DNA of 64,000 nt from Halorubrum sp. CSM-61 (GTDB taxonomy: Archaea; Halobacteriota; Halobacteria; Halobacteriales; Haloferacaceae): NCBI RefSeq assembly GCF_003781945.1, contig NZ_RJJW01000012.1:1-64000 (forward strand), in the 5' to 3' direction. The notes beneath the pieces were generated by a model that saw only the letters and a program-made list of their open reading frames with translations, was not told where the DNA came from and did not search any database. Positions 58,085 to 64,000 of this stretch are shown piece after piece. Within the stretch, counting starts at the first letter, position 1. Every line of letters begins with the position of its first letter. The position numbers were made by a program, and so were the translations under genes.

Positions 58085-58366
58085 ATGTACGACTTAACAG
58101 GTTTCCAGCGAGATCTGCTAGTTGTGATTGCTGGCCTCAACGAACCTCACGGGCTCGCAATTAAAGACGAGCTTGAGGAGTACTACCAGAAAGAGATCCA
58201 CCATGGACGGCTGTATCCGAATCTCGATACCCTTGTTGAGAAGGGCCTTGTTGAAAAAAGTCAGAAGGATCGTCGGACGAACGCGTACGAACTGGCTCGC
58301 CGTGGGGAGCGTGAGATAGAGGCCCGGATTGAGTGGGAATCCGATCACATTGAGCACGGGGTGTAA
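58085..58366 (+). CDS. PadR-family transcriptional regulator
   Basis: A 93-residue regulator consisting of the PadR winged helix: FQRDLLVVIAGLNEPHGLAIKDELEEYY, HHGRLYPNLDTLVEKGLVEKS, then YELARRGEREIEAR. Such short PadR proteins are common next to haloarchaeal plasmid genes. It precedes orc1/cdc6 with 105 bp between, in which two TTTCCGGAAA palindromes lie; self-regulation and control of cdc6 are plausible. AATAAATAAC upstream is a suitable TATA element. Confidence 0.9.
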   Translation: MYDLTGFQRDLLVVIAGLNEPHGLAIKDELEEYYQKEIHHGRLYPNLDTLVEKGLVEKSQKDRRTNAYELARRGEREIEARIEWESDHIEHGV

Positions 58367-58426: not shown

Positions 58427-58471
58427 GACCCGAGTACAGTTTTGTATCCCGAGCGAGAAGCCGATGGCACC

Positions 58472-59497
58472 ATGATCCGCGATGCTCGCGTACTCCGTGC
58501 CGGGTTCGTTCCCCAAGAGGTTGAGCATCGCGACGCCGAAGTCAATCACCTCTCTAGTGTTCTCGAACCTATTACAAACGGAGAGCCGGCAGACACAGCG
58601 ATATTGACTGGTCCAAGTGGGACAGGAAAGACGTGTATTTCGCGGTTCGTCACGGAACGACTGCGCGAAGAAGTTCTCGATGTCGAGACCACCTACGTCA
58701 ACTGCTGGCGCAACTACACCCGATTCCGTACCCTCTACCAGATTCTCGATGACATCGGGAAGACAATCGACATCCATCGCCAGTCAACGCCCCATGATGA
58801 GCTGATCGACCGGCTCCAACAGTACGATGGCTCTCGAACAGTGGTCATCCTCGACGAGGCAGATCAGCTTGAGGATCCAAGCGTCATCTATGATCTCCAC
58901 AGCCTGCCGCAGTTCGCGATCATCTGTATTGCGAACAAAGAAGAGGAGCTGTTCAGCCAAGTTGACGATCGGCTCGTGAGTCGGTTGCGTTCGAGTGAAC
59001 ACGTCCGGATGGACAAATACCACAACGAACAGCTGTTCGACATTCTGAGCGCTCGATCGAAGTGGGGACTTGAGAACGGTGTTATCACGGACGACCAGCT
59101 GTATCAGATCGCGGATGCCGCCGCCGGCGATGCTCGACTGGCGATCGGGATGCTCCGGAGTGCGGCCAGCACGGCTGCGCGGGAGAATCACGATCGCATT
59201 ACGACTGAGATTCTCACCGAGGCGGCTGAAGACGCTAAGGCGCAAATTAAACAGAAGAGCCTCGACTCGCTCACGCCACACCAGCGGGTCGTGTACGATA
59301 TCGTCCGCGATCACGGCCCGCTCGCCCCAGGCGAAATTCACAGCCGCTACACTGCGGAAGTCGATGACCCACGGACGAAACGCACTGTTCGAACGTATCT
59401 CTCGAAGATGGCCCAGTACAATCTGCTTGAGGCAGAAGGGACGAGTCGGGACCGGGAGTACTCGCTCGTCGATTCAGCGGCTGCGTCGCCTATGTAG
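58472..59497 (+). CDS. orc1/cdc6: Orc1/Cdc6-type replication initiator
   Basis: A 341-residue AAA+ protein. Walker A GPSGTGKTC (about residue 47), Walker B VVILDEADQLED (about residue 125), sensor-1 region IICIANKEEEL and sensor-2 region GDARLAIGMLRSA are all present. The C-terminal winged helix (LDSLTPHQRVVYDIVRDHGPL...YTAEVDDPRTKRTVRTYLSKMAQYNLL) recognises origin DNA. It is one of the shorter haloarchaeal variants found on plasmids and secondary origins. ATG at 58472 is preferred; an in-frame ATG at 58442 would add ten residues. It probably defines a replicon or an integrated one. Confidence 0.92.
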   Translation: MIRDARVLRAGFVPQEVEHRDAEVNHLSSVLEPITNGEPADTAILTGPSGTGKTCISRFVTERLREEVLDVETTYVNCWRNYTRFRTLYQILDDIGKTIDIHRQSTPHDELIDRLQQYDGSRTVVILDEADQLEDPSVIYDLHSLPQFAIICIANKEEELFSQVDDRLVSRLRSSEHVRMDKYHNEQLFDILSARSKWGLENGVITDDQLYQIADAAAGDARLAIGMLRSAASTAARENHDRITTEILTEAAEDAKAQIKQKSLDSLTPHQRVVYDIVRDHGPLAPGEIHSRYTAEVDDPRTKRTVRTYLSKMAQYNLLEAEGTSRDREYSLVDSAAASPM

Positions 59498-59593: not shown

Positions 59594-59634
59594 TTAACCA
59601 ACAATTTGCCCAGTCATACCGAAATGTTGGTTAA
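59594..59634. repeat. Inverted repeat TTAACCAACA-N21-TGTTGGTTAA, copy A
   Basis: Perfect 10-bp arms (59594-59603 and 59625-59634) in the 300-bp gap after cdc6. The same arms with a 22-bp spacer occur at 63504-63545. The rest of the 59498-59776 gap shows no gene. Confidence 0.85.
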
Positions 59635-59776: not shown

Positions 59777-60840
59777 GAGAGTGACTAGTTATTGATACTC
59801 ACGGACATAAATACGCAAACACATCTGGGATTTCGACCCGGTTGAGTACAGAGAGAGCAGCCTCACGGAGATCGTCGAGTGTGTCAAACAGGCGGTTCCC
59901 AAGTTCTTGATCAAGTTGTCTCCAACACTCTTCCGCGGGGTTCAGCTCCGGTGAACCCCGCGGTAGGTAACAGAGTTCTATCGGTGTATCTTCAGCAAAC
60001 TCTTGGACCTTGTTCGCCGTGAAATACGAGGCGTTGTCCAAAACGACGCAAATCTTCTCGCCGAATTCAGTCTGAAGTGCGTCGAGAAGTCGAATCGTCG
60101 TGTCGCTGTTAAAATTCCCTGCACACGGCAGGAAGAACGTATCACCGCCATCGCTGACTGCACCAAGCAACTTGATACTATCCCACGCGCCCGTCACCGG
60201 CAGTGACGGGCGCTCTCCTTCCGGAAACCACGCATAAATCAACGTCGAGAGAACCTGTCTCGTCTGATCGATGGTCAGGATCGTGTATTCGTCGTCCAGG
60301 TCGTTGCGCTTTTTTTGAAGCCTCCTTTCCAGGCTTCTTGGGCTCTTTCGTCGGATTTGTAGAACTCCGGCCGGGCTGTCTTCCAGGACAGCCCGGCCTC
60401 AGACATCAATCTCCGGACGTGCCGCTCACAGTACTCAACGTCAAACTCTTCGACGAGATAGTGACGAGCTAGTGGAACAGACCACGCGGGCGCGTCTAAT
60501 CCTACTTCCTCAGGCGATTCGTGAAGTACCTTGACGAACCGCTTGTGCTGTTCATCAGAGAGTTCGGTTGGTCTGCCTTCGCGCGGATCGTCGTAGGCGA
60601 CTTGCTCGACCGGCTCATCAGCGAGCCGGTCGAGCCGGCCAACCCACCGAGACAACCATGGACCGGTGTAGCCGTATCGTTCAGCAACCTCCGCCATCGT
60701 TGCATCGTCTTCTTCAAGATAGTTGATCACCGCCATTAGCCGCTGTGTCGGCTTTTTATCTTCGACCTCCGCGAGAGCGTCGCGGAGGTCGTCAAGAGTG
60801 GCGGCGTCAAGCGTGGACATACTTGCTAATCACACTCTAA
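59777..60840 (-). mobile_element. IS630-family insertion sequence
   Basis: About 1.06 kb around a complete frameshifted transposase. The ends are placed by a short inverted match, AGAGTG near 59778 and CACTCT near 60838, with further weaker similarity inside. Exact ends and the TA target duplication expected for IS630 could not be fixed by eye. Confidence 0.65.
59799..60820 (-). CDS. IS630-family transposase with -1 programmed frameshift
   Basis: Two overlapping phases. The first (60820-60275) encodes two helix-turn-helix units (ATMAEVAERYGYTGPWLSRWVGRL). The second, ending at 59799, encodes the DDE domain: LTIDQTRQ, VVLDNASYF and SPELNPAEECWRQL. The join is a run of seven A residues on the coding strand (60316-60310) followed by G. 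A -1 shift there gives GFKKKRNDLDDEYTILTIDQ, a continuous sequence. A7G slippery sites are a known feature of frameshifting IS630 elements. Confidence 0.82.
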
Positions 60841-60864: not shown

Positions 60865-61815
60865 ATGAGTATGGAAGACCACCCACCATCGAACCGGATG
60901 GCAGCCGACAAGCCGACCCGGGGAGCTGACCGCAATCTGGGCTTGGCAGATCAGGGCGATCCGGCCACAGAAGAGATGCTCCTACCGTCACTCGACGACG
61001 GGATCACACTGCTCGACGTTGACGGCGGCCGTGGCGTTCCAATCCTCCAGTCGCTCGTGCTTGATCACCTCCTGTTACACGATGGGCCCGCCTTCTGGGT
61101 CGACGCAAACGGCCACGCAACGACGACCACGCTGTCTCAGATCGCACCCAGCCAACGGTTACTCAACCGAATCCACGTCGCACGCGGATTCACCGCGTAC
61201 CAGCACTACGGCACCGTCTGCGATCTCCCTACAGCGGCGAACAAATCGATCCAGACATCCACCGCCGATATCGGGGCGACCAGTCGAGTGGCTCCAGATC
61301 GTAACGAGGACACCTCGCCCCATACACCCGCCCTCATCGTCGCGCCGGCAGTCGACGCCCAGTACCGTACTGACGATACTCTCGGCGAGGCCCACGCGAA
61401 AACGCTTCAGGCTCGAACTCTCGCCCGGTTGGCGACCTACGCTAATGGGTACGACATCCCGGTGCTCGTTACGCGAACCGAACAGAACGAATTCACCGAG
61501 CCGGTCGCGACGGTCGCCGACAACCACCTCAAGTGCGAGCAGACTCGGATGGGACCACGGCTCGTCGGCGAGGACTTTGAGACGCTTGTTTATCCCGTCG
61601 ACGACGGCGCGTACTACCAGACGACGTTCGCGTACTGGCGGCAGCTGCTCGCGGCACGCGCCACGCAGGTCGGCGTGGAACCAACGACGCCGGCGCCGTC
61701 GACGTCGACCCCGGAGGGTGTCGGGACGGGCGTCACAGCTGATGGTGAAACGGTGGCGACCACCGCGGATCCCTTGCTTGATGCGTGGACCGCAAGCGGG
61801 ACAGGAGGCCGATAG
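60865..61815 (+). CDS. RecA/RadA-like protein lacking a Walker A lysine
   Basis: A 316-residue protein. DDGITLLDVDGGRGVPILQSLVLDHLLL corresponds to the P-loop strand and helix of RecA-superfamily ATPases, but the loop reads DGGRGVP with no GK[S/T]. FWVDANGHATTTTLSQIAPSQRLLNRIHVARGFTAYQHY resembles the second strand-helix unit. The C-terminal 60 residues are low-complexity (TTPAPSTSTPEG). I infer a RecA-fold accessory protein without ATPase activity. It starts the four-gene run leading to the DNA polymerase, just after the IS630, which may have separated it from its promoter. Confidence 0.6.
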   Translation: MSMEDHPPSNRMAADKPTRGADRNLGLADQGDPATEEMLLPSLDDGITLLDVDGGRGVPILQSLVLDHLLLHDGPAFWVDANGHATTTTLSQIAPSQRLLNRIHVARGFTAYQHYGTVCDLPTAANKSIQTSTADIGATSRVAPDRNEDTSPHTPALIVAPAVDAQYRTDDTLGEAHAKTLQARTLARLATYANGYDIPVLVTRTEQNEFTEPVATVADNHLKCEQTRMGPRLVGEDFETLVYPVDDGAYYQTTFAYWRQLLAARATQVGVEPTTPAPSTSTPEGVGTGVTADGETVATTADPLLDAWTASGTGGR

Positions 61816-61817
61816 GG

Positions 61818-62138
61818 ATGGGGCGCACGAATCCGACGTACCGTGATGCGCTCCGGGCCATCAAAGAGCGGTGGTCTGATTTCAGACGGGCACTGCGGCG
61901 TCGCGACCAGCCGCGATTCGACCGGCTGTTCGAGTACGCTCGCGAACACGCCGACGCAAGCGGGCTGTTGAACCACCAGAATCCGCTGCTGCCGGCGCTT
62001 CTCAGTATCGATCTCGAACAGGAGGCGCACCTTGAGGACCACGAGAAACGTATTGAAGACCTCGAGCGGCAGCTTTCAGAGGTGAGTGATACCAGTACAG
62101 ACTCATCCGTCGAGGATGACACTCGAGGGCCAGAATGA
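61818..62138 (+). CDS. Small Arg/Glu-rich coiled-coil protein
   Basis: A 106-residue protein: basic N-terminal half (RDALRAIKERWSDFRRALRRRDQPRFDRLFEYAREHAD) and an acidic coiled-coil tail (LEDHEKRIEDLERQLSEV). It starts 2 bp after the RecA-like gene stop and overlaps the exonuclease start by four bases, so the three are translated together. No family name is recognised; a scaffold or DNA-binding role with its neighbours is inferred from context. Confidence 0.7.
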   Translation: MGRTNPTYRDALRAIKERWSDFRRALRRRDQPRFDRLFEYAREHADASGLLNHQNPLLPALLSIDLEQEAHLEDHEKRIEDLERQLSEVSDTSTDSSVEDDTRGPE

Positions 62139-62782
62139 CCGAGTTGACAACGATCGCCTTCGACATCGAGACGACGGGATTCGAGACGACAGACGAACTC
62201 ACAGTCGTTGGGTTCGATTCGGCTGTCGCATCTCGTGTGTTTCTCAATACGGGTAGCATGACACCCCCAAAAGCCCTGGGAGAACAGCTAAACGATACCA
62301 TACAGACACCGGTCAAGCTCTCACTCCACGACAGCGAACAGGAACTTCTGAATGAACTGGCGACGTTCGTCACGTCGACACTCAGCCAACGCGACGCGAA
62401 ACTCGTCGCGTACAACGGTGAGCGATGGAATGGCGGCTTTGATCTGCCGTTTCTACGGACACGACACAGCGCACATGGATTTGAGTGGCCGTTTGGCACG
62501 CTTCCGTACGTCGACGTGATGGACGTCTTCGAGACGCGCTTCAACACTAGCAACGACAAGCTGGGTGGCGTCTACAAGGAGCTGGTCGGTGAGGGGTTGA
62601 ACGAGCTGGATCCGTTCACCGACAGTCAAGAGGCTGTCACAGCGTGGGAGGAGGGACGATTCGAACCACTCATCACCCACAACGTCGCTGATATCAGGCG
62701 CACCCGCGCGCTGATGGCACTGGCAGAACGTTACTGTTCGAAGTCAGATTTCTCGATGAAATCGCTTGAGCCGATCGTCTGA
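62135..62782 (+). CDS. DEDD-type 3'-5' exonuclease-like protein
   Basis: A 215-residue RNase H-fold nuclease. AFDIETTGFET (residues 8-18) is ExoI with the DxE pair, AYNGERWNGGFDLPFL (about residue 89) is ExoII with the YNG-x-FD pattern, and THNVADIRRT (about residue 185) contains the last Asp of ExoIII. The layout resembles predicted PolB-associated exonucleases. It lies upstream of a polymerase whose N-terminal region is visible at the window end, and it could act as a proofreading partner or in repair. All four acidic residues are present. Confidence 0.82.
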   Translation: MTELTTIAFDIETTGFETTDELTVVGFDSAVASRVFLNTGSMTPPKALGEQLNDTIQTPVKLSLHDSEQELLNELATFVTSTLSQRDAKLVAYNGERWNGGFDLPFLRTRHSAHGFEWPFGTLPYVDVMDVFETRFNTSNDKLGGVYKELVGEGLNELDPFTDSQEAVTAWEEGRFEPLITHNVADIRRTRALMALAERYCSKSDFSMKSLEPIV

Positions 62783-62799
62783 GAATCTCTTGTCGTCGA

Positions 62800-63411
62800 T
62801 CATTCGACGACGGAGGTGCTACTGTCACCATCATCCTCAGTACCCGTGCTTGTCAAGTGACCAGTCCGGATTGCTTCGCCGATTGCGAGGGTTGCTTCTG
62901 CGAGCGCGAGGTTGCGTCGCGTCGTTTGCCATTCTGTGAGGAAGGCACCGTTGTCGCTGTCGGCATCGTCGATATCTAGTTCACGGGCGAACTCCTCGGG
63001 TGAATCAACATCATATTCCTCGCGCCACGCCTGTATCTGTGCCTTCATGTCAGCGATTCCAGATGCGATCTCTTCGGGCGTCCATTCGGCGAGGAGTGAC
63101 TTGGAATATTCGGTGACGATGGCTGTTTCCGAACGGCGGTAGTGCGTCGTCTGTCCATCCTGTGATGTCGTCACTTGGCCAGCACCTTCGAGCGTCCGAA
63201 GGTGCTTTCGTGCTGTGGTCGGCGAGACACGTGCGCGATCGGCGATCTGTCCCGCAGACGTCGGATCGTACACACGAGAGATGACTTCGTACACTCGTTC
63301 AAAGGTTGTCGTCTCCTTGATCCATTCCTCTTCGACGGCGTCGTTCACATCACGGTGTTCGGTGCCGCCATCCGAGCTTATTCGGTGGAGCGGGAACGGC
63401 TCCTCGGACAT
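62800..63411 (-). CDS. Winged-helix regulator (DUF7342-like)
   Basis: A 203-residue protein. Winged helix at residues 30-95 (FERVYEVISRVYDPTSAGQIADRARVSPTTARKHLRTLEGAGQVTTSQDGQTTHYRRSE). The helical C-terminal part includes WTPEEIASGIADMKAQIQAWREEYDVDSPEEFARELD. It resembles haloarchaeal plasmid regulators listed as DUF7342. It is divergent from the DNA polymerase gene, with inverted repeat copy B between them. ATG at 63411 is preferred to the in-frame extension upstream. Confidence 0.8.
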   Translation of the reverse strand: MSEEPFPLHRISSDGGTEHRDVNDAVEEEWIKETTTFERVYEVISRVYDPTSAGQIADRARVSPTTARKHLRTLEGAGQVTTSQDGQTTHYRRSETAIVTEYSKSLLAEWTPEEIASGIADMKAQIQAWREEYDVDSPEEFARELDIDDADSDNGAFLTEWQTTRRNLALAEATLAIGEAIRTGHLTSTGTEDDGDSSTSVVE

Positions 63412-63503
63412 TATGTGCCAACTAACGAGAGAACCGTATAATAACCTGTGAGGTGGTCTATTGTTCACCAAATCCAAGAGATAGGGAACCGTCCAGAGTA
63501 TCC

Positions 63504-63545
63504 TTAACCAACATCCATCTGTGAGACGGTCGTTTTGTTGGTTAA
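63504..63545. repeat. Inverted repeat TTAACCAACA-N22-TGTTGGTTAA, copy B
   Basis: Perfect 10-bp arms (63504-63513 and 63536-63545) between the divergent winged-helix regulator and the DNA polymerase gene. Same arms as copy A, 3.9 kb away. Confidence 0.85.
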
Positions 63546-63728
63546 CACGCTTTCGGGGGTTCAGATAACAAGCTCGGAAACGATTCTGGAAACGGGGGTA
63601 CCGAAGCGAATACGCAAGAATACGTTGTTTCTGTCAAGCCGATCTCCATTTCCCGAAATCCGGAACAGACACGCCGGCGATTATGCGAGACTCCGGTGTG
63701 GAGACTGGTAGGTGGATGACTACCACAA

Positions 63729-64000
63729 ATGGTGTTCACAATCGATTTCCTTGGCGATGGTCGGGTCCTTGAATGGGAAGCGACCAACGACGGCGCGACT
63801 GCGACCGAACACGACGACTACACACCTCGCTTCTATGTCACAGCACGTGACCCTAACACCGACATTGATCTCACGCCACTTCGCTCACAATACGAGCGAC
63901 ACCCAGATGTCGTCGCGACAGAGATCGTATCCCGGCGCCCCGGATTTCGTCGTGACGACGAGCCCGCTCTCGCTGTCGACGTCGACCACGTCGACCGCGT
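63729..64000 (+). CDS. polB: Family B DNA polymerase, N-terminal part (runs past window end)
   Basis: An open frame of 90 codons with no stop, beginning MVFTIDFLGDGRVLEWE and continuing DDYTPRFYVTARDPNTDI...DVVATEIVSRRPGFRRDDEPALAVDV. This matches the N-terminal domain of the second haloarchaeal PolB (PolB2-like), which often lies on plasmids and mobile regions. Palm and finger motifs are outside the window, so completeness and activity cannot be judged. Confidence 0.75.
   Translation, partial: MVFTIDFLGDGRVLEWEATNDGATATEHDDYTPRFYVTARDPNTDIDLTPLRSQYERHPDVVATEIVSRRPGFRRDDEPALAVDVDHVDR

Follow-up and report, generated by a model that had tools for sequence, protein, structure and literature searches.

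What does the group of genes at the end of the analysed stretch of Halorubrum sp. CSM-61 encode? The window, the whole stretch of 64,000 bases, covers positions 1–64000 of an 83,218-base contig (C15). Near its end, three consecutive plus-strand genes at 60865–61815, 61818–62138 and 62135–62782 encode a RadA-like protein (iRadA), a small helical protein (PPB2) and a DEDD exonuclease (EXO), with a family B polymerase gene (PolB2) beginning further downstream. A first-pass annotation, made from the sequence alone, took this group for a possible undescribed mobile repair system comparable with the bacterial ImuA-ImuB-DnaE2 cassette. The core iRadA-PPB2-PolB2 is the PolB2 mutasome operon in its haloarchaeal form, a described operon, and the claim of an undescribed system falls with it; the recurrent exonuclease partner, an intact EXO beside a known core, looks new. 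The explanation preferred here, to which we give about an even chance, is that a stand-alone DEDD 3'-5' exonuclease, acting in trans and under shared control, has been added to a PolB2 mutasome operon of the haloarchaeal form. It builds on the membership of the core, a PolB2 without a recognisable proofreading domain, an intact EXO with that very fold, linkage in three gene orders, and a shared element.

The core of the locus is a PolB2 mutasome operon

The three genes are packed as tightly as first annotated: iRadA stops two bases before the ATG of PPB2, and the stop codon of PPB2 overlaps the ATG of EXO (ATGA). Their coordinates and descriptions hold, except that the start of the small gene is corrected to the ATG at 61818, the site of its MGRT motif, instead of an upstream GTG. 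The polymerase start that they were said to precede does exist at 63729, on the same strand as PPB2 and in the order of the described operon. It does not follow EXO immediately: the two are separated by a DUF7342 winged-helix gene on the reverse strand and by non-coding sequence that contains an inverted repeat. PolB2 begins 1593 bp downstream of PPB2 in the window and directly adjoins it in a second copy of the module on contig C11 of the same genome.

The Rad51 Pfam match of iRadA remains below threshold (E = 0.25), and its structural model, of modest quality (mean predicted local distance difference test score, pLDDT, of 66), matches the cores of RadA, Rad51 and DMC1 (best Foldseek E = 4.7e-11). 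The Walker A string GxxxxGK[ST] is found in none of the 22 aligned iRadA homologues, and the description of a RecA-like protein with a defective P-loop thus stands. The C-terminus of iRadA (61780–61812 in the window) carries the tail LLDAW in 16 of these 22 rows and LLDTW in one, the other rows being cut short; such a tail might be a clamp-binding motif. PPB2, a small helical partner of the arCOG07300 type, begins with MGRTNPTYRD, the motif reported in PMC11791011, and its N-terminal MGRT motif is invariant in 11 aligned sequences.

The first 90 codons of PolB2 lie in the window (63729–64000, plus strand), the whole gene extending over contig positions 63729–65888 and encoding 719 amino acids. 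These 90 residues match the NCBIfam model 'type B DNA-directed DNA polymerase' (E = 3.3e-39), and the protein belongs to family B (PF00136). PolB2 keeps SLYP of motif A, and its motif C reads HGIVDS in all seven proteins compared, at the place where PolB3 of this genome has YGDTDS. No exonuclease domain is matched by Pfam in the three PolB2 proteins scanned, and the ExoI string D[IVLF]E is absent from the N-terminal part of six of seven, including that of the window. PolB2 has therefore apparently lost the proofreading domain, a loss that rests on the Pfam scan, the D[IVLF]E pattern and PMC7544198, the alignment of PolB3 with PolB2 being poor in the N-terminal part. The replicative PolB3 is encoded by a separate gene on contig C23 (a frame of 1372 amino acids) with intact exonuclease motifs (DIEV and YSIRDV) and YGDTDS. 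Intact motifs of this kind are absent from PolB2, and the window polymerase is ruled out as the main replicative PolB.

In the main text of Makarova 2014 (PMC4104785) and Timinskas 2025 (PMC11791011), the operon consists of PolB2, the small helical arCOG07300 protein and an inactivated RadA, situated near orc1/cdc6 and SRAP genes; the small protein has been renamed PPB2, and the inactivated RadA is called iRadA. The window exhibits the marks of this operon, namely iRadA without the ATPase motif, PPB2 with MGRT, and a polymerase in which the first Asp of DxD is replaced and no exonuclease domain is recognisable.

EXO is an intact exonuclease with the fold of a B-family proofreading domain

EXO (62135–62782, plus strand) is an RNase_H_2/DEDD protein (PF13482, E = 5.7e-9), as the first-pass annotation had recognised. 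Its catalytic residues D10, E12, D103, H182 and D186 do not vary among 26 aligned relatives, two linked copies with in-frame stops having been left out of the exonuclease alignment (A1). The sequence search against the PDB yields chance matches only; the search with the structural model succeeds. This model is good (pLDDT 89.5, predicted template modelling score 0.89), and the best 50 of its 135 matches (E ≤ 0.001) are all B-family DNA polymerase chains, archaeal ones and Pol epsilon. The locus thus encodes a counterpart of the proofreading domain as a separate protein, beside a polymerase from which this domain has apparently disappeared. The main text of PMC4104785 and PMC11791011 mentions no separate exonuclease gene of the operon, and 'exonuclease' there refers to domains of polymerases or of DP1.

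The exonuclease is repeatedly linked to the mutasome operon

A survey of the genus comprises 52 genomes, some of them identical to genomes in the set of named genomes used below. The exonuclease is present in 33, PolB2 in 40 (E ≤ 1e-20), iRadA in 37 and PPB2 in 36. Among 56 PPB2 matches (one a fragment), 23, from 21 genomes, have an exonuclease at most 200 bp downstream on the same strand; a PolB2 match follows within 12 kb downstream in 18 of these and is missing in five, and some of the exonucleases are fragments or bear stops.

Beyond the genus, the best 80 of 107 relatives in named genomes form 79 loci, so that the counts lean to close relatives. Together with the window locus and eight plasmid loci, they give 88 loci with 89 long exonuclease matches, and each locus is labelled by at least two marker genes within 3.5 kb. 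Forty of the 89 matches are accompanied by two or more of iRadA, PPB2 and PolB2, four lie beside Cdc6 only, ten elsewhere, and two are uncertain. The 40 linked matches cover 12 named genera (Halorubrum, Halobellus, Halovenus, Halopenitus, Salinibaculum, Natronomonas, Halobacterium, Halorussus, Halorientalis, Halonotius, Haloglomus and Halohasta), a member of Haloferacaceae outside the named genera, three plasmids, the window genome and a metagenome-assembled genome labelled Clostridia. The contig of the latter (L107) carries a haloarchaeal iRadA-PPB2-EXO set, and its label is probably a binning error.

Gene order is conserved among the relatives, in agreement with the cassette that was first annotated, and three arrangements occur. 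The main group has iRadA-PPB2-EXO-PolB2, Halohasta salina (L120) has iRadA-EXO-PPB2-PolB2, and Salinibaculum KK48 (L146) has iRadA-PPB2-PolB2-EXO, with EXO directly 3' of PolB2. The cleanest case is a plasmid of Haloarcula halophila (L163), in which Cdc6 is followed by iRadA-PPB2-EXO-PolB2 with gaps of two bases or overlap. In the exonuclease tree (86 of 89 rows, the short matches L108, L110 and L134 having been dropped), 37 of 39 mutasome-linked rows fall into one group, which also includes two Cdc6-linked rows and an uncertain one; the nearest relative of EXO is from Halorubrum yunnanense. L120 and L146 fall outside this group, and the linked exonucleases therefore stand at three places, although L120 has a long branch whose placement is not strongly supported (95/79). 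The mutasome label requires five changes on the tree, four of them forced by well-supported branches. The tree and the gene orders point to more than one origin of the joining, and a gene that has entered one operon repeatedly, at several positions, is unlikely to be a simple passenger.

Mobility, the remaining part of the first-pass claim, holds in part. Relatives are often found on plasmids, the exonuclease in 32 plasmid records and PPB2 in 101; mobility as a unit does not follow, as all of these plasmid records are typed non-mobilizable and no relative of the exonuclease is found in phage records or viral contigs. A virus origin of the exonuclease is rejected, with no relative in phage records and none in viral contigs (358 pattern matches, none confirmed).

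A shared inverted repeat precedes many iRadA and detached PolB2 genes

A perfect inverted repeat of the form TTAACCAACA-N~21-TGTTGGTTAA occurs at two sites in the window, 59594–59634, where it reads TTAACCAACA-N21-TGTTGGTTAA, and 63504–63545, which is 184 bp before PolB2. With 9-base arms, these two sites compare with none in 100 shuffles of the window. The genome contains 12 sites with exact 9-base arms (reversed control, none), and exact 10-base-arm sites exist in 44 of the 52 genomes of the genus, 393 in all, again with none in the reversed control; most are close to genes of the module or of regulators. Two further copies of the repeat lie on contig C15 (65890–65933 and 68919–68959), and others on contigs C8 and C20. 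The loci studied contain 110 distinct sites whose 9-base arms are exact; 87 of them span 41 or 42 bases, and in 96% an A occupies the tenth position of the arm. The spacer is without strong conservation, its mean identity among the 12 sites of this genome being 0.33, compared with 0.30 when shuffled.

The position of the repeat was counted within 450 bp upstream of genes, with at most one mismatch per arm, in the named loci, the plasmid loci and the two copies of this genome. It stands upstream of iRadA in 27 of 42 cases (139–165 bp, typically about 158), of a PolB2 that starts its own unit in 15 of 27 (140–185 bp, typically about 180), of SRAP in four of eight (55–69 bp) and of a gene for a two-winged-helix regulator in eight of ten (84–85 bp). 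No such site precedes any of five internal PolB2, 90 exonuclease or 47 PPB2 matches. Furthermore, the 41 loci with PPB2 (580 kb) contain 83 sites, distributed over 36 loci, and the 48 other loci (707 kb) contain four, in three loci; a complete 91.8 kb plasmid has a single site, 163 bp before PolB2. Repeat sites are common on small contigs. A PolB2 that is detached by an insertion tends to be preceded by a separate copy of the element. This argues for a shared control of the iRadA operon and the detached PolB2 through the repeat.

The published motifs of two regulators differ from the repeat, and both were rejected as its owner: RosR, whose motif is TCGnCGACGAGnTCGnCGAC and not TTAACCAACA-N-TGTTGGTTAA (RosR sites themselves were not searched for), and CsmR. 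The two-winged-helix protein, with an HVO_2833_C domain (L035 14043–14969 and L036 4905–5825), has the repeat 84 bp upstream in both copies of this genome. It was rejected as the sole regulator, because G008, G011, G023 and G037 have seven or eight sites and no match to it at E 1e-20. Judged from titles and the starts of abstracts among the matches listed, no report of such a haloarchaeal operator was found in the literature, and TTGGTTAA is absent among the matches listed.

Neighbouring genes and the second copy

Upstream of the repeat at 59594–59634, the plus strand encodes a PadR-type regulator homologous to hsRosR (58085–58366; PF03551, E = 8e-16; hsRosR PDB chains, E = 1.7e-24), which adjoins an Orc1/Cdc6-family ATPase gene (58442–59497; TIGR02928, 187.3 bits against a cut-off of 181.3). 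An Orc1/Cdc6 neighbour is likewise present at the C11 copy and in many relatives. Such a RosR-like PadR regulator beside Cdc6 is also found in L168 (5097–5465), and a relative on contig C20 has a repeat site 37 bp before its reading frame.

On the minus strand, an insertion at 59799–60820, which we take to be of the IS630 type, contains two transposase frames (60275–60820, HTH_33, E = 1.3e-17; 59799–60242, DDE_3, E = 1.7e-31). Owing to it, the repeat is situated about 1.2 kb before iRadA, whose start lies some 45 bases beyond that of the transposase. The insertion may cut the window operon off from its promoter and leave this copy impaired. The C11 copy comprises Cdc6, SRAP, a TnpB gene, iRadA, PPB2 and PolB2, without the exonuclease; there, the TnpB gene separates SRAP and its repeat site from iRadA. 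Gene calls between the known genes rely on crude open reading frame filters.

The DUF7342 winged-helix gene between EXO and PolB2 (62800–63477, minus strand; PF24033, E = 2.6e-32) is paired in many relatives with a protein of 160 amino acids that weakly resembles TumE and is absent in the window. Either this pair or an alternative one, in which an unmistakable TumE (E = 7.8e-11) accompanies a regulator of the HVO_A0114 type, lies repeatedly between the exonuclease and PolB2 (L041 5734–6890, L039 6791–8035, L049 6674–7441). Second, partial copies of PPB2, some with a partial exonuclease, are situated between DUF7342 and PolB2 in L079, L082, L083, L084, L085 and L087, which suggests cassette exchange by recombination at PPB2.

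Weighing the explanations

Several observations weigh against a PolB2 operon with its own exonuclease under shared control. The exonuclease is optional, as 25 of the 56 PPB2 matches in the genus lack it and have PolB2 at a distance of at most 50 bp; in eight others without it, PolB2 is further off (five) or is missing too (three). Among the close group of PolB2 proteins, identity to that of the window is 82–91% for exonuclease-free operons and 81–93% for linked ones; the PolB2 of the exonuclease-free C11 copy, at 89%, is no more distant than many of the linked ones. In most linked loci, the exonuclease and PolB2 are kept apart by a regulator or toxin-like pair, and the PolB2 of Halohasta retains LDIE at residue 132, the single case of seven in which ExoI is not lost by the D[IVLF]E pattern. 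Some EXO copies are broken: G049 C33 (L054) and G036 C2 (L042) each have one in-frame stop, so that some copies are decaying, and G017 and G023 hold fragments. The element is missing before 15 of 42 iRadA and 12 of 27 detached PolB2 genes. Against a simple operator, the site at contig position 65890 lies just behind PolB2, between convergent genes, and many sites belong to other genes.

The relatives outside the operon raise another explanation, that EXO is a defence nuclease degrading foreign nucleic acid, packed by plasmids together with a damage-response operon. HRAMP is described in PMC8730458 as a system of haloarchaea that derives from CRISPR and comprises nucleases besides homologues of Cas5 and Cas7. 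Most cousins of EXO, with about 50% identity, belong to a conserved array in which three genes are followed by the exonuclease and an HNH gene, and one of the three genes has Cmr3-type similarity (E = 1.2e-4). These cousin operons fit HRAMP, the name being assigned here by gene content against that description. HRAMP-like operons with three RAMP-like genes, a DEDD exonuclease and HNH are observed around position 8001 of L113, L121, L122, L125, L126, L129, L137 and L140. A defence role gains from the 33 of 89 exonuclease matches that lie in HRAMP-like operons instead of the mutasome operon, from a PADLOC model of a Cas-associated DEDDh protein that matches both kinds (E = 2.1e-5 and 1.7e-4), and from the adjoining toxin-like pairs. 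It is nevertheless unlikely, since most mutasome-linked copies cluster apart in the tree and their position within the operon is retained, EXO starts in overlap with PPB2 or closely behind it, and none of four HRAMP-type genes is found near the window copy (L035).

EXO could also be passenger DNA, dropped with the DUF7342 pair into the PolB2 operon by plasmid recombination and without joint function. Its optional presence, its occasional breakage and the regulator or toxin-like pair that usually follows agree with this, as do the PPB2 and exonuclease remnants of the six loci, which show that recombination has occurred. Three gene orders, three tree places and catalytic residues that stay invariant in 26 relatives are harder to reconcile with a passenger, and loci free of the pair have EXO and PolB2 contiguous (L163, L120 and L146); this explanation appears distinctly unlikely. 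Very improbable is a service of the whole set in plasmid replication or its Orc1/Cdc6 control instead of lesion bypass, with the repeat as a replication or recombination site. A replication role was raised by Makarova 2014 (PMC4104785, main text), Orc1/Cdc6 genes lie on both sides, one repeat site sits between convergent genes and sites are common on small contigs. Against this, Sulfolobus PolB2 has been described as a damage-induced extender polymerase, Halobacterium can do without polB2, SRAP is found in the same neighbourhood and has some of the sites, and the distances from site to start codon are nearly fixed (139–165 and 140–185 bp).

Possible function of the exonuclease-bearing operon

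Under the preferred reading of a mutasome operon with a trans-acting exonuclease, DNA damage would act through the shared element on iRadA-PPB2-EXO and on PolB2. iRadA, a PPB2 trimer and PolB2 would then form the heteropentameric extender polymerase complex predicted by Timinskas 2025 (PMC11791011). EXO would presumably work in trans on the 3' ends handled by PolB2, either proofreading them or removing termini that are damaged or mispaired, and could thereby temper or enable mutagenic extension. PolB2 is regarded as an error-prone extender that does not proofread. Should a separate gene restore a 3'-5' exonuclease to it, a detachable subunit would allow archaea to tune the mutation that damage induces, comparable to DnaQ in bacteria.

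A wider proposal, put forward tentatively and somewhat doubtful, is an SOS-like haloarchaeal regulon, located largely on plasmids and small contigs, with a 41–42 bp inverted-repeat operator; its error-prone PolB2 mutasome would possess a proofreading exonuclease of its own, acting in trans, which was recruited on three or more occasions from a family that also serves the CRISPR-derived HRAMP systems. The shared repeat offers a direct handle on this possible DNA-damage regulon. With the core known, the parts that look new are the exonuclease partner, absent from the main text of the operon papers, and the conserved element, for which no report was found.

Comparison with known systems

HRAMP carries a cousin of EXO, and the two differ in that no other HRAMP gene accompanies EXO in the window. 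Like ImuA-ImuB-DnaE2, the locus combines a RecA-like protein, a partner and an error-prone polymerase in one cassette, and the first-pass comparison is apt to this extent; the resemblance to a translesion cassette is not one of descent. The protein families are different, no match to a Y-family ImuB or a C-family polymerase exists among the scanned proteins, and the polymerase is PF00136, so that homology is rejected. With the PolB2 mutasome operon, the Dpo2 operon in Sulfolobus, the locus shares all three core proteins and their marks, the same order, and Cdc6 and SRAP nearby. The window form adds a DEDD exonuclease between PPB2 and PolB2, and the exonuclease-bearing form usually has a regulator pair that detaches PolB2.

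DnaQ is the separate proofreading subunit of bacterial Pol III. In both DnaQ (named in PMC12926913) and EXO, whose DEDD site is intact, a separate DEDD exonuclease is encoded for a polymerase without active proofreading. EXO differs in belonging to PF13482 and resembling the B-family domain, in having an error-prone partner, and in that its pairing with the polymerase is predicted from gene linkage.

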